64,000 nucleotides of DNA. Origin: Corallococcus sp. AS-1-6. Its GTDB lineage: Bacteria > Myxococcota > Myxococcia > Myxococcales > Myxococcaceae. The notes under the pieces are model-generated. The model made no database searches, was not told where the DNA came from, and saw nothing but the letters and a program-made list of their open reading frames with translations. A program made the translations under genes and the position numbers. Position 1 is the first letter of the stretch, and each line of letters starts with the position of its first letter. Below are positions 51,556 to 55,103 of the stretch, one piece after another. The stretch lies in contig NZ_JAIQDE010000030.1 in assembly GCF_020037015.1 (NCBI RefSeq), forward strand, positions 1-64,000. The letters run 5' to 3'.

Positions 51556-54378
51556 TCAGGGCAGCGGCGTGGAGCCCTCCGGGGGCGGGCGGGAGATCCA
51601 CGCGGCGATGAACACGTCCAGCTCACCGCGCATCACGTCCTTCACGCGGGGCGTCCCCGCGCCCGTGCGTGGATCCTCCACCCGCGCTCCTCGGCCCAGG
51701 AAGTAGCGGCGGGCCTCGTCGGTGCTGGCGCCCTGTCCGGCGACGACTCGCGCGGCGATGCCCTTGAGCTCGTCCAGCTCTCCCGCGCCAATGAGCGTGA
51801 GCACGCGGCCCGTGGCCTCGTCCTTCGCGGTGACCTCGTTGCGCACGCGCTGGAGGTACTCGCCCTCGCGGCTCTTCACCGGCCGGCCCTCCAGCACCAG
51901 CAGCTCCCGCTCCACCTCCTCCAGCGGTCCGCCCCGGTGCACGCGCACGTACGCGCGCTGGCGCTTCTCGTCCTCCAGGCGGCGGTGCAGCCCCGCCTCG
52001 CCCGCGAGGAACCCATACGCGCCCGGTCCGGCGATGCGCACCACCACGCGCGCGGGGGCGTCCGCCTCCGCGACGGCGGTGGCCTCGTAGCCCCGGCGCT
52101 GCGCCCAGCCCAGGTACATGGTGGCCAGCTCCTGCACCCACATGGCCTGCTGCTCCGACGTGTCGCTGGCGCAGATGTCCACCAGCGCCTCGTTGTCCAG
52201 CGGCGTGGCCCCGGCGGCCCGCAGCGCTTCCGCCATCTGGACCTCGCGCGCGACCTCCTCCACCTGCTTCGCCGCGGAGCCCAACTGCATCTCGTTCTTC
52301 GCCTCGCGCACCAGCCGGCGCCCGAAGTGGCACGCGGCCTCCAGGCGGTCCAGCTCTCCCAACTGCGCCTCCACCGTGCGGAAGGCGCGGAGGACCTCCG
52401 CCGCGCGCCGCGGGTCGTCCCAGAGGTTGGGCGCCTGCGTCTCCGCGAGCAGCGCGGCCCGGCGCGTCTCCAGCTCCGGCCGTCCCGTGGACTCGGCGAG
52501 CGCGCGGGCGCGGCCCACCAGCCGGTCCATTTCGATCAGCAGCGACTTGCGGTCCAACCGGCGCTTCACCGCCGCGGCCTTCGGCGTGGGCAGGAGCAAC
52601 TGCGCCGTCACCTCGCGGGGCGGCGGCACGGGCTCCGCGACCGCGACCACGCGGCCTCCGGGACGGGCCTCCACGCGCACGGGCGTGCCGGGCGGCAGGG
52701 GCCTGCGGGCGATCTCCACCGCGAGCGCCGCGGTGAGCGTCTTCTCGATTTCACGCTGCAGGTAGCGCGCGCCGAACTGCGGCGAGTAGCCGCGCTCCAC
52801 CAGCCGGTCCACGACCTCCGGTGTCACCTCCACGTCCAGGGCGCGGGCGCGGATGCCCTCGCGCTCCAGCACGCGGCCCACCTCGCGCTGGGCAATCTTG
52901 CGGATGTCCACGCGCGACAGCGGGCGGAAGTGGCAGATGGCGTCGAAGCGGTTGAGGAACTCCGGGCGGAAGGCCTCCGCGATGCGGCGGTCCACCTCCG
53001 ACACCTGCTCCTCGGCGCGCTTGTGCGCGGCGAAGCCCAGGCCCGCCTCGCGGTACACCTCCGAGCCCACGTTGGACGTGGCCACGATGAGCGTGTTGTT
53101 GCACGACACCGCCTCGCCCGCGCCGTTGACGAAGGTGCCCTCGTCGAAGAGCTGGAGGAAGCGGTCGTGCACGCTGCGCGCGGCCTTCTCGAACTCGTCC
53201 AGCAGCAGCACGGTGAACACCTTGCCGTCGAGCAGCGCGGACAGCTCACCGCGCCGCGTCTCCAGCGCGGGCGCCCACGATGCGCCGAAGGGGACGCTCT
53301 CGTCGCCGTCGTTGGGGTAGTCCGCCATGTTCAGGCGCACCAGTCTGTCGGCGGAGCCGAAGAGATACTCCGCCAGCAGCTTCGCCAGTTGGGTCTTGCC
53401 CACGCCCGTGGGGCCGGCGAAGAGGAACACGCCCAGCGGACGGCGCGGGTCGTTGAGCCCCGCCTTGAGCAGCGCCACCGAGCGCAGCACCGCGGCCACT
53501 GCGTCCGTCTGGCCGAGCAGCCGCTCCCCGAAGAAGCGCTCCGTCTCCTCCAGGTCCAGCGGCATCGCGTCGTCCACGACGAAGCGGGGCAGGCGCGTGG
53601 CGGCGCAGAAGCGGGTGAGCACGTCCTCCGGGCCCACGTGGTCGCGCGCCACGCCCGCGGCCTCCGCCGCCGTCTCCTTGAGCAGCTCGATCGCCTTGCG
53701 CGGCATGTGCTGCGCCAGGAGGAACTTCGCGGACAGCCGCAGCGCCAGGTCGCACGCGGCCGGGTCGATGGGCAGCCGCAGCTCGCGCTCCAGCTCCTCC
53801 GCCACGCGGCCGACGATCCAGCGCGCCTTCTCCAGCGACGGCTCGTTCAAAGGCAGCAGGTGCAGCCGCTCCGCCAGGGCCTCGTCGGCGCGCAGCAGCT
53901 CCTGCACGCGCTTGGGCTCGGTCTCGAAGATGAAGCGCAGCCCGCCGGTGCGCAGCGCGCGCACGGCCACGGGGGCCAGGGGGCCGCCGAGGGCCACCGG
54001 CAGGTCGCGGATGTAGACGATGGGGCAGGGGTGGCGGCCCAGGTGGGTGAGCAGCTCCTCGAAGGACTCGGCGGCCTGGCGCTGGGTGCTGCGCGCCAGG
54101 ATGTTCGCGACGGACACCTCCACGAGCCGCGCCTGGGCCAGGTCGCCGTCCACGCGCCCCTCGGCGATGCGGCGGGCCACCTCCTGCACGAGCGCGCTCT
54201 TGCCCACGCCGGGTTCGCCCGCCAGCAGCGGGTGCTTGCCTCCGCGCGCCAGCAGCCCCAGCACCTCCGTCACGGCGGTGTCCACGCCGTGGGCGGCCGG
54301 CAGCTTGCCCTCGCGCGCCATCGCGGTGAGGTCGCGGTCGATGAGCCGCTCCTGGTCTTCGTTCTTCCTCGTCGCCAT
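51556..54378 (-). CDS. ClpB-like double AAA+ protein fused to release-factor-2-like domain
   Basis: A 940-residue fusion. Residues 1–250 form a ClpB/ClpA-type NBD1 (DRDLTAMAREGKLPAAHG; Walker A GEPGVGKSA about 54); where Walker B should be it reads VYIRDLP, so hydrolysis there is doubtful. NBD2 (about 290–560) is intact: GPTGVGKTQLAKLLAEYLFG split by its Walker A, VLLLDEFEKA, and the D2-small domain. From about 600 the sequence follows RF2: the APNLWDDPRRA helix region, ALVDICASDTSEQQ with MYLGWAQRRGYE, GAYGFLAGEAGLHRR, and the C-terminal end RTGAGTPRVKDVMRGELDVFI. The RF2 tripeptide SPF and the catalytic GGQ are missing. The Clp N-domain is absent. Likely bound to ribosomes or stalled complexes; function unknown. 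Confidence 0.9.
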   Translation of the reverse strand: MATRKNEDQERLIDRDLTAMAREGKLPAAHGVDTAVTEVLGLLARGGKHPLLAGEPGVGKSALVQEVARRIAEGRVDGDLAQARLVEVSVANILARSTQRQAAESFEELLTHLGRHPCPIVYIRDLPVALGGPLAPVAVRALRTGGLRFIFETEPKRVQELLRADEALAERLHLLPLNEPSLEKARWIVGRVAEELERELRLPIDPAACDLALRLSAKFLLAQHMPRKAIELLKETAAEAAGVARDHVGPEDVLTRFCAATRLPRFVVDDAMPLDLEETERFFGERLLGQTDAVAAVLRSVALLKAGLNDPRRPLGVFLFAGPTGVGKTQLAKLLAEYLFGSADRLVRLNMADYPNDGDESVPFGASWAPALETRRGELSALLDGKVFTVLLLDEFEKAARSVHDRFLQLFDEGTFVNGAGEAVSCNNTLIVATSNVGSEVYREAGLGFAAHKRAEEQVSEVDRRIAEAFRPEFLNRFDAICHFRPLSRVDIRKIAQREVGRVLEREGIRARALDVEVTPEVVDRLVERGYSPQFGARYLQREIEKTLTAALAVEIARRPLPPGTPVRVEARPGGRVVAVAEPVPPPREVTAQLLLPTPKAAAVKRRLDRKSLLIEMDRLVGRARALAESTGRPELETRRAALLAETQAPNLWDDPRRAAEVLRAFRTVEAQLGELDRLEAACHFGRRLVREAKNEMQLGSAAKQVEEVAREVQMAEALRAAGATPLDNEALVDICASDTSEQQAMWVQELATMYLGWAQRRGYEATAVAEADAPARVVVRIAGPGAYGFLAGEAGLHRRLEDEKRQRAYVRVHRGGPLEEVERELLVLEGRPVKSREGEYLQRVRNEVTAKDEATGRVLTLIGAGELDELKGIAARVVAGQGASTDEARRYFLGRGARVEDPRTGAGTPRVKDVMRGELDVFIAAWISRPPPEGSTPLP

Positions 54379-54430
54379 GGTGTGGTCCGGAACGCCCCCT
54401 CGACGTGCGGCACTCTAACCGGTGCGGCGC

Positions 54431-54478
54431 GGAAGCGAAGTCCCGGCCCATTCCGTGGGCCGGGGACCCTACGCTTCC
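54431..54478 (-). terminator. Extended hairpin downstream of the HNH gene
   Basis: An outer pair GGAAGCG (54431–54437)/CGCTTCC (54472–54478) encloses an inner stem GTCCCGGCCCA (54440–54450) with its complement at 54456–54467 (one bulge, 5-nt loop). The stop of the HNH gene overlaps the outer arm. It should reduce read-through from the HNH gene into the Clp–RF2 gene, which starts 90 bp on. Confidence 0.6.
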
Positions 54479-55011
54479 AGCTCCGTGTGCCAGTAGGCCA
54501 CGTCCCTCAGGAACTTGCGCCAGGACAGGGGCAGGCCCTTCTCCATGAGGAACGACACGACCAGCGCGTCCGGCAGCCGCTTCGGCTTCGCGGGCACGGT
54601 GCGCAGCGTCATGCGCGCCTGCGCCGGGGTGCGGTTGCCCTTCTTCTGGTTGCAGGGCACGCAGGCGATGACGATGTTGTCCCAGCTCGTGCGGCCGCCC
54701 TGCGCGCGCGGCAGCACGTGGTCGTACGTGGCCTCCGGGCGGGTCACCTTGCGGCCGCAGTACTGGCAGCGGCACTGGTCGCGCTGGTAGACGTTCTCCC
54801 GGCTGAAGCGCACGCCGCGCGGGCCCTTCCACAGGGCGCGCACGAAGCGGATGACGGACGGCATGCGCAGCTCCACCGTCACCGAGCGGATGACGCGGTC
54901 CTCGTACTCCTCGACGACCTCCACCTTGCCCTGGACGAGCAGCATGACGGCGCGTTGCCACGGGATGCGTGCGACAGGTTCGTAGGACTGGCTCAGCACC
55001 AGCGTTTCCAT
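54469..55011 (-). CDS. HNH endonuclease
   Basis: A 180-residue HNH-family nuclease. The N-terminal part METLVLSQSYEPVARIPWQRAV is typical for a group of small chromosomal HNH proteins. The beta-beta-alpha-metal site is seen as CQYCGRKVT, then YDHVLPRAQGG (catalytic His) and CVPCNQKKGNRTP, giving CxxC…CxxC zinc and H–N–H residues. The biological role of this group is not established. I choose the ATG at 55011; the frame extends to 55089 through a tRNA-like element, which makes a longer protein unlikely. The leader holds a GAAAGG site. Confidence 0.88.
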   Translation of the reverse strand: METLVLSQSYEPVARIPWQRAVMLLVQGKVEVVEEYEDRVIRSVTVELRMPSVIRFVRALWKGPRGVRFSRENVYQRDQCRCQYCGRKVTRPEATYDHVLPRAQGGRTSWDNIVIACVPCNQKKGNRTPAQARMTLRTVPAKPKRLPDALVVSFLMEKGLPLSWRKFLRDVAYWHTELEA

Positions 55012-55035
55012 GACACGGGGGCCTTTCGGGCGGGA

Positions 55036-55103
55036 CAGGCCGCCAGGGAGTCGAACCCTGCTCGTCCGGATTTGGAGTTCGGACTGCACCCGGTGCGCGG
55101 CCT
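55036..55103 (-). tRNA. tRNA-Trp-like element (anticodon CCA) with reduced D arm
   Basis: On the minus strand, 68 nt fold as a tRNA. The acceptor stem AGGCCGC/GCGGCCT pairs perfectly over 7 bp, the discriminator is G, the T arm CAGGG-TTCGACT-CCCTG is perfect, and the anticodon loop is CTCCAAA (anticodon CCA, Trp). The anticodon stem has an A·C mismatch in 5 (it can extend to 7 positions outward). Between acceptor and anticodon stems there are only 14 nt with GCA/TGC able to pair, in place of a normal D arm of about 16 nt with TA at 8–9. CCA is not encoded. A1–U72, G2–C71, G3–C70, G73 and the anticodon are Trp identity features. It ends 24 nt before the HNH start codon, so it may be a tRNA or a tRNA-like mRNA leader. 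Confidence 0.55.

Follow-up and report, generated by a model that had tools for sequence, protein, structure and literature searches.

We describe here a single gene, which we call ClpRF, whose product joins a double AAA+ motor of the Clp/Hsp100 type to a module derived from release factor 2 (RF2) that has lost both the SPF and the GGQ motifs. An old translation factor seems to have been put to new use here, as the part by which a chaperone or protease machine docks or takes on an adaptor. The gene lies in the window (the whole 64,000-nucleotide stretch analyzed, from contig NZ_JAIQDE010000030.1 of Corallococcus sp. AS-1-6, a 9.5 Mb genome in 82 contigs) as one open reading frame (ORF), starting with ATG and running from 54378 to 51556 on the minus strand in a single frame of 940 amino acids (aa), just as a model reading the sequence (the original prediction) had delimited it. 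The nearest named relatives are Corallococcus strains (96–98% identity). The class-I Clp/Hsp100 double AAA+ core spans residues 12–570, and the RF2-derived module runs from about residue 606 to 930; a full-length AlphaFold model (predicted local distance difference test score, pLDDT, 68; predicted TM-score 0.40) served for the domain layout only. We propose, with about an even chance of being right, that ClpRF would be a ClpA-type AAA+ machine with a built-in RF2-derived adaptor, or docking module, at its C-terminus in place of the missing N-domain. The parts of the gene are as follows.

51556..54378, minus strand: ClpRF, one 940-aa ORF with the Clp double AAA+ core first and the RF2-derived module after it
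53644..54345, minus strand: nucleotide-binding domain 1 (NBD1, ring 1), residues 12–245; Walker A kept, Walker B acid pair DE changed to RD, pore-loop aromatic gone
52669..53556, minus strand: NBD2 (ring 2) and small domain, residues 275–570; AAA_2 and ClpB_D2-small matches, ATPase motifs kept, pore loop GYVG changed to xW(A/G)x
53032..53040, minus strand: [LMI]GF loop, residues 447–449; aligned with the ClpP-docking loop position of the genome's own ClpA
52564..52668, minus strand: proline-rich linker, residues 571–605; low model confidence, fast-changing in most pairs compared
52192..52563, minus strand: RF2-like domain 1, residues 606–729; helical
51940..52191, minus strand: RF2-like domain 2, residues 730–813; core kept, tip of the codon-side helix and SPF loop gone
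51733..51906, minus strand: RF2-like domain 3, residues 825–882; predicted fold, with the GGQ loop deleted; lowest conservation among the RF parts in 7 of 10 pairs
51589..51717, minus strand: RF2-like C-terminal tail, residues 888–930; VEDPRTG..TPR.KDV.RGELD.FIAAW, poorly modeled

The Clp-type motor

The motor half contains two tandem AAA+ modules of the Clp type, which places it in class I of the Clp/Hsp100 family and bears out the double AAA+ protein originally predicted for the first 560 residues or so. Pfam finds AAA_2 at 313–481 (expectation value, E, 7.8e-34) and ClpB_D2-small at 487–569 (E 4.1e-14), the NCBIfam models for ClpA, ClpB, ClpV, ClpK and ClpG all match, and PDB sequences of ClpC, ClpB and ClpA match this half with E values down to 1.4e-72. 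The genome encodes a true ClpB and a true ClpA elsewhere, both above cut-off, as well as a third ClpB/ClpA-like protein that falls below it.

Motifs were scanned in 74 homologous rows, from which the query was left out and in which the same genomes (the window's own included) are repeated because the loci were drawn from two collections. Ring 1 retains Walker A in all 34 of the rows that cover the site, and its Walker B reads IVYIRDL in ClpRF instead of the FIDE type, the DE pair being replaced by RD in 71 of the 74 rows and by PD in one (two rows are empty there). Ring 2 retains Walker A and Walker B in 74/74 rows, along with sensor 1, the arginine finger and sensor 2, and its core residues are invariant among 16 aligned members. 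Judged by Walker A and Walker B together, ring 2 has the equipment of a competent ATPase and ring 1 does not, in line with the broken first Walker B and intact second domain of the original prediction; NBD1 would be expected to bind ATP and not to hydrolyze it. Neither ring carries the canonical aromatic pore loop: no aromatic residue stands at the ring 1 position in the 16 aligned members, and the GYVG of ring 2 occurs in none of the 74 rows, all of which have W368 instead.

Past sensor 1 of ring 2, all 74 rows carry an invariant GF, with L, M or I as the residue before it (36 LGF, 25 MGF and 13 IGF). This [LMI]GF loop aligns with the MGF of the genome's own ClpA; the genome's own ClpB has no such motif there. 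In ClpA, ClpX and ClpC the loop at this place, [LIVM]G[FL], is the ClpP-docking loop, and it may dock ClpP in ClpRF too.

The motor had been called ClpB-type, and as far as Clp/Hsp100 membership goes that holds; in anatomy, however, it lies nearer to ClpA than to ClpB, and the [LMI]GF loop, which the original prediction had not mentioned, points the same way. There is no middle domain (the coiled coil of ClpB), since the ClpA model crosses both rings at 14–569 as one unbroken stretch, and no N-domain, since the ORF begins directly at the AAA core. ClpRF thus shares with ClpA two AAA+ rings without a middle domain, the ring 2 motifs and the GF at the place of the ClpP loop; unlike ClpA, it lacks the N-domain, the ring 1 Walker B and both canonical pore aromatics, scores 277.4 bits against a curated cut-off of 993, and carries the RF2 module. 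With the ClpB/Hsp104 disaggregases it has in common the double AAA+ Hsp100 core, and the ClpB model gives the top NCBIfam score (288.8 bits, short of the curated cut-off of 1232), but it has the [LMI]GF loop and neither their N-domain nor their middle coiled coil. In a 12-row tree of the AAA part, ClpRF does not group with any one Clp type. Several genomes of the family also carry further Clp-like ATPases, as two open frames of about 1140 and 765–880 aa a few kb apart (at G025:C14:174642-182802 and similar places).

The release factor-derived module

From about residue 600 to the C-terminal end the protein resembles RF2, as had been predicted. Pfam PCRF matches at 637–799 (E 1.4e-15) and was found in all 15 of the family modules scanned, and the NCBIfam prfB model matches at 623–799 with E 1.7e-22, compared with 5.2e-7 for prfA. 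Among PDB sequences, residues 594–940 match E. coli RF2 (E 1.8e-15), and a weak second piece of that match aligns the C-terminal RTG...LDxFI end. The likeness holds in an AlphaFold2 model of the module as well, which was built on 15 family sequences and has a mean pLDDT of 70.8 (module residues 1–23, 301–303 and 311–356 are under 50): each of the 50 rows that Foldseek lists is a chain of the RF1/RF2 type (1gqe comes first, with E 5.3e-16 but a TM-score of only 0.54), and VIA-align puts 1gqe, which is free E. coli RF2, first (Z 17.9, 297 residues aligned, root-mean-square deviation 5.4). The predicted model shows the RF2 fold with its domains 1–4, including domain 3, the catalytic domain in RF2, although the assignment of the tail rests on sequence more than on fold because the last 46 residues of the model have a pLDDT below 50. 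A true RF2 with SPF and GGQ is kept elsewhere in the genome.

To locate what the module has lost, we aligned it with ten myxobacterial RF2 and one RF1 (the RF2 loci L097 and L099 were left out of the RF2 set). The tip of the codon-side helix is replaced, about six residues of the SPF loop and about seven of the GGQ loop are deleted, and a further deletion of about 23 residues takes away the hairpin and switch loop of RF2. The absence of SPF and GGQ, asserted in the original prediction, extends to all 74 RF parts (0/74 each). The Y-L-Q that had been read at the GGQ site is indeed the commonest variant there, but its glutamine is not conserved (relatives have E, A, S or D instead) and the loop residues around it are missing outright. 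In RF2, SPF is reported to be critical for reading the stop codon, GGQ to bind in the peptidyl-transferase center and the switch loop to contact the decoding center (PMC5378476). With SPF and GGQ gone from the module, ClpRF can hardly decode stop codons or hydrolyze peptidyl-tRNA and is most unlikely to be a terminator, as the original prediction had also held.

What remains is the domain order of RF2, its predicted fold, and a core and tail with many of its residues. Residues identical in ClpRF and RF2 include G784, G789, L791, E794, G796, H798, R799 and R806 in domain 2 and R890, Y892, V900, D902, R904, T905, G906, V915, G918 and F923 in the tail, among others, whereas R911, K913 and R917 are conserved in ClpRF (with K in place of R917 in 2 of 74 rows) and not in the RF2 set. 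Set against RF2 as a whole, ClpRF differs in lacking the codon-side tip, SPF, GGQ and switch loop and in being fused to a motor, and its prfB score is 79.9 bits against a cut-off of 370.

The ratio of nonsynonymous to synonymous substitution rates (dN/dS), computed by the simple Nei–Gojobori method for ten pairs, is 0.11–0.33 over the RF module in nine of them, and 0–0.20 over the tail (888–930) in all ten. The tail is the best-conserved part of the module in most pairs, while the lowest identity among the four RF parts falls to domain 3 in 7 of 10 pairs and to domain 1 in the three closest. Judging from these ratios, purifying selection has preserved both the domain 2 core and the C-terminal tail. 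A tree of 32 rows gathers all 16 ClpRF modules into a single clade, on the RF2 side, whose stem measures 3.19 changes per site and is followed by shorter branches, a shape that fits one fusion and then a one-time change of role; their placement inside RF2 is unsure because the stem is so long.

Distribution of the fusion

The same architecture was found in other genomes, where the original prediction had suggested looking for it. In the order, 76 of 145 genomes carry ClpRF nearly full length (from residue 12 or before to residue 930 or beyond) in one piece, among them one genome from another family (G137) and one (G049) with a single TAG in that alignment and none in the phylum-sample search. 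Within the family Myxococcaceae, at least a clear piece of ClpRF is present in 86 of 96 genomes (the others being G001, G043, G050, G081-G086 and G093).

Two genomes depart from this arrangement. In the small genome G045, the RF2-like part stands alone in one open frame (L075, 7091–8281; 46–47% identity), between xerC before it and hslU after it, a position not seen in the other loci compared. This frame has no ATG, GTG or TTG before base 7451 of L075, and another frame upstream, from 7138 on, resembles the N-terminus of ClpRF over some 25 residues, which suggests that most of the AAA part has been lost there. In G068 (13.3 Mb in two contigs) the motor and RF halves are in different frames (L077, 2126–5156), with the switch within the proline-rich linker; either an error in sequencing or a genuine split could account for this. 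These two loci are what could be cited for the view that ClpRF is an artifact, whether a frameshift or assembly join of two genes or a decaying pseudogene. We give that view practically no credence, since the many independent one-piece ORFs in the order, and an RF-part dN/dS well below 1 in all ten pairs, mark the fusion as genuine.

Beyond the order, ClpRF was sought in several collections. A phylum sample of 195 genomes yielded nothing new of the ClpRF type, the further matches below 1e-70 spanning the Clp part only. Viral contigs gave no ClpRF relative, and a search of phage records with the whole protein gave 160 matches, all of them with coverage below 80% (in the 8 rows listed, only the Clp part is matched). 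The RF module alone matched 8 plasmid records, all below 60% identity (23–28% in the rows), two of which cover 83% of the query; of the two inspected (H3 and H5), H5 is annotated as RF2, and the others are probably RF2 too. Two other phyla were searched with the RF module (E of 1e-22 or lower, at most 5 scored candidates each): the sample for the phylum of G195 (395 genomes) gave two weak matches (4e-23 and 5e-23) in frames of 359 and 379 aa, the size of RF2, and that for the phylum of G196 (386 genomes) gave no match in a search run without a positive control. The scan of genome contigs reaches close relatives only because exact peptide patterns were used, and given these limits ClpRF-like fusions may yet exist in distant groups.

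Myxococcus xanthus is genetically tractable. Its strain AM003 (locus L022) carries ClpRF, which gives a carrier open to genetic work. Eight clpA/B/C copies are reported for M. xanthus (PMC11423568), and one of them may be the ClpRF gene. The M. xanthus Clp ATPase MXAN_4832 is reported to be upregulated with chloramphenicol (PMC6617876); in G077 (one contig, 9.3 Mb) ClpRF matches at 1.76 Mb and another Clp match lies at 6.02 Mb, positions which hint that ClpRF and MXAN_4832 may differ.

Proposed function and gene neighborhood

The fusion itself, the intact ring 2, the [LMI]GF loop, an RF2-like predicted fold with the A-site loops clipped and the signs of purifying selection together argue for a motor with a built-in adaptor. 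ClpRF would assemble as a hexamer in which ring 1 would hold ATP and stabilize the assembly and ring 2 would hydrolyze ATP and pull on a partner. This partner, most likely a former RF2-binding protein of the translation apparatus, would be bound by the core and tail of the RF2 module, pulled apart, and either released or passed to ClpP.

Several observations weigh against this proposal. Threading of substrates is unsure because neither ring keeps the canonical pore aromatic, and the RF module, following ring 2 on what would be the ClpP-docking side, could obstruct ClpP. The most distant pair has a dN/dS of 0.62 over the RF module, and ClpRF would be dispensable in 10 of the 96 family genomes, if these are complete, since no clear piece was seen there. 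An operon partner was sought and the gene neighbors name none: in the 37 loci compared (some of them short, L041 having only 242 bases upstream) no neighbor is shared with the relatives at 60% identity, and wider sharing occurs only among closer relatives. A link with RF3 was likewise set aside; RF3 scores above its cut-off in 88 of the 96 family genomes, 9 of the 10 without ClpRF among them, and is therefore found both with and without it.

The original prediction had the RF2 module dock the motor on ribosomes without acting as a terminator, for ribosome rescue or nascent-chain extraction. In such a model the module would be a non-terminating A-site or L11-stalk factor on ribosomes, perhaps stalled ones, and the rings would extract a nascent chain or a stuck factor. 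We consider this a possible explanation, if a rather doubtful one. The RF2 fold is kept together with domain 1, which in RF2 is reported to bind the L11 stalk (PMC5378476), and with the domain 2 core, and the basic tail residues R911, K913 and R917 that ClpRF conserves would suit such docking. Net charge does not contradict it and is no argument for or against: the ClpRF modules stay close to neutrality (−8 to +2), and RF2 rows are themselves net acidic in 13 of 14 cases (−4 to −19; the fourteenth is +5). Yet the loops with which RF2 touches the codon, the decoding center and the peptidyl-transferase center are gone, and with the codon-side tip, the SPF and GGQ loops and the switch loop either replaced or deleted, binding to the A site in the manner of RF2 is disfavored. 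Contact with the ribosome in some other way is possible, since domain 1, the domain 2 core and the tail are kept. RF2 domain 1, moreover, points to the factor-binding side, away from the exit tunnel, the place to take hold of a nascent chain. Nor does the genome leave an obvious gap in rescue to be filled, since it has transfer-messenger RNA (tmRNA); the ArfB model NF006718 passes its cut-off in 0 of 96 family genomes and is therefore of no help either way.

It is also conceivable, though we judge it improbable, that the module recruits no substrate at all and is a structural or regulatory cap that aids oligomerization or autoinhibits the D2 ring. It does join the D2 small domain through a short linker, and domain 3 drifts where the domain 2 core and the tail stay conserved, but a cap has no obvious need for the RF2 fold throughout the module, domain 1 included, and a linker that is proline-rich and poorly modeled suggests an independent domain.

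Some known systems resemble ClpRF in part. PrfH lacks domain 1 and keeps a GGQ-type catalytic domain. It is like the ClpRF module in being RF-derived (a lower-ranked match of the module model, 9mor, Z 10.2) and unlike it in being bound to damaged ribosomes, according to the titles of structure entries. Dom34/Pelota resembles ClpRF in idea only, as a release factor paralog without catalysis (a GGQ-less paralog of eRF1), the partner of Dom34 being ABCE1. Vms1/ANKZF1 working with Cdc48, a eukaryotic parallel that speaks for ribosome docking, is again similar in idea only, as an RF-related protein coupled to an ATPase (PMC6514570). Unlike ClpRF, both belong to the unrelated aeRF1 superfamily, work with different ATPases and are unfused. 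Taken further, ClpRF might be a bacterial quality-control machine in one protein, whose RF2-derived dock would bring a ClpA-type and possibly ClpP-linked motor to translation complexes, there to take apart or degrade some factor or product bound to the ribosome, and thus a covalent counterpart of the RF-like Vms1 with Cdc48; this joint claim is speculative and we think it unlikely.

No description of a Clp–RF2 fusion was found in the open-license literature searched, and a survey of release-factor evolution (PMC6514570) gives no hit for Clp or myxobacter; databases may well carry ClpRF under a generic name. If our proposal is true, it shows that a class-I release factor of bacteria can lose its active loops and persist as the binding module of an unfolding machine. 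Should the partner belong to the translation apparatus, ClpRF would offer a direct route to a new quality-control or regulatory step in myxobacteria; should it lie outside, a translation factor would here have been recruited to serve as a proteolytic adaptor.

An HNH endonuclease gene lies upstream of ClpRF in the window (54472–55089, minus strand), and its HNH part resembles the IscB (E 7e-14) and Cas9d (E 5e-14) models, below their cut-offs. The gap between the two genes (54380–54468, minus strand) holds, by eye, a G+C-rich inverted repeat without a T run. The HNH gene is found near ClpRF in 26 of the 37 loci compared (L009-L042 and L076-L078), at varying distance, and some downstream genes are also common to Corallococcus and a few others. 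One record titled Comamonas sp. KCTC 72670 (L024) contains a ClpRF that is 88% identical, together with the HNH neighbor, and looks mislabeled.

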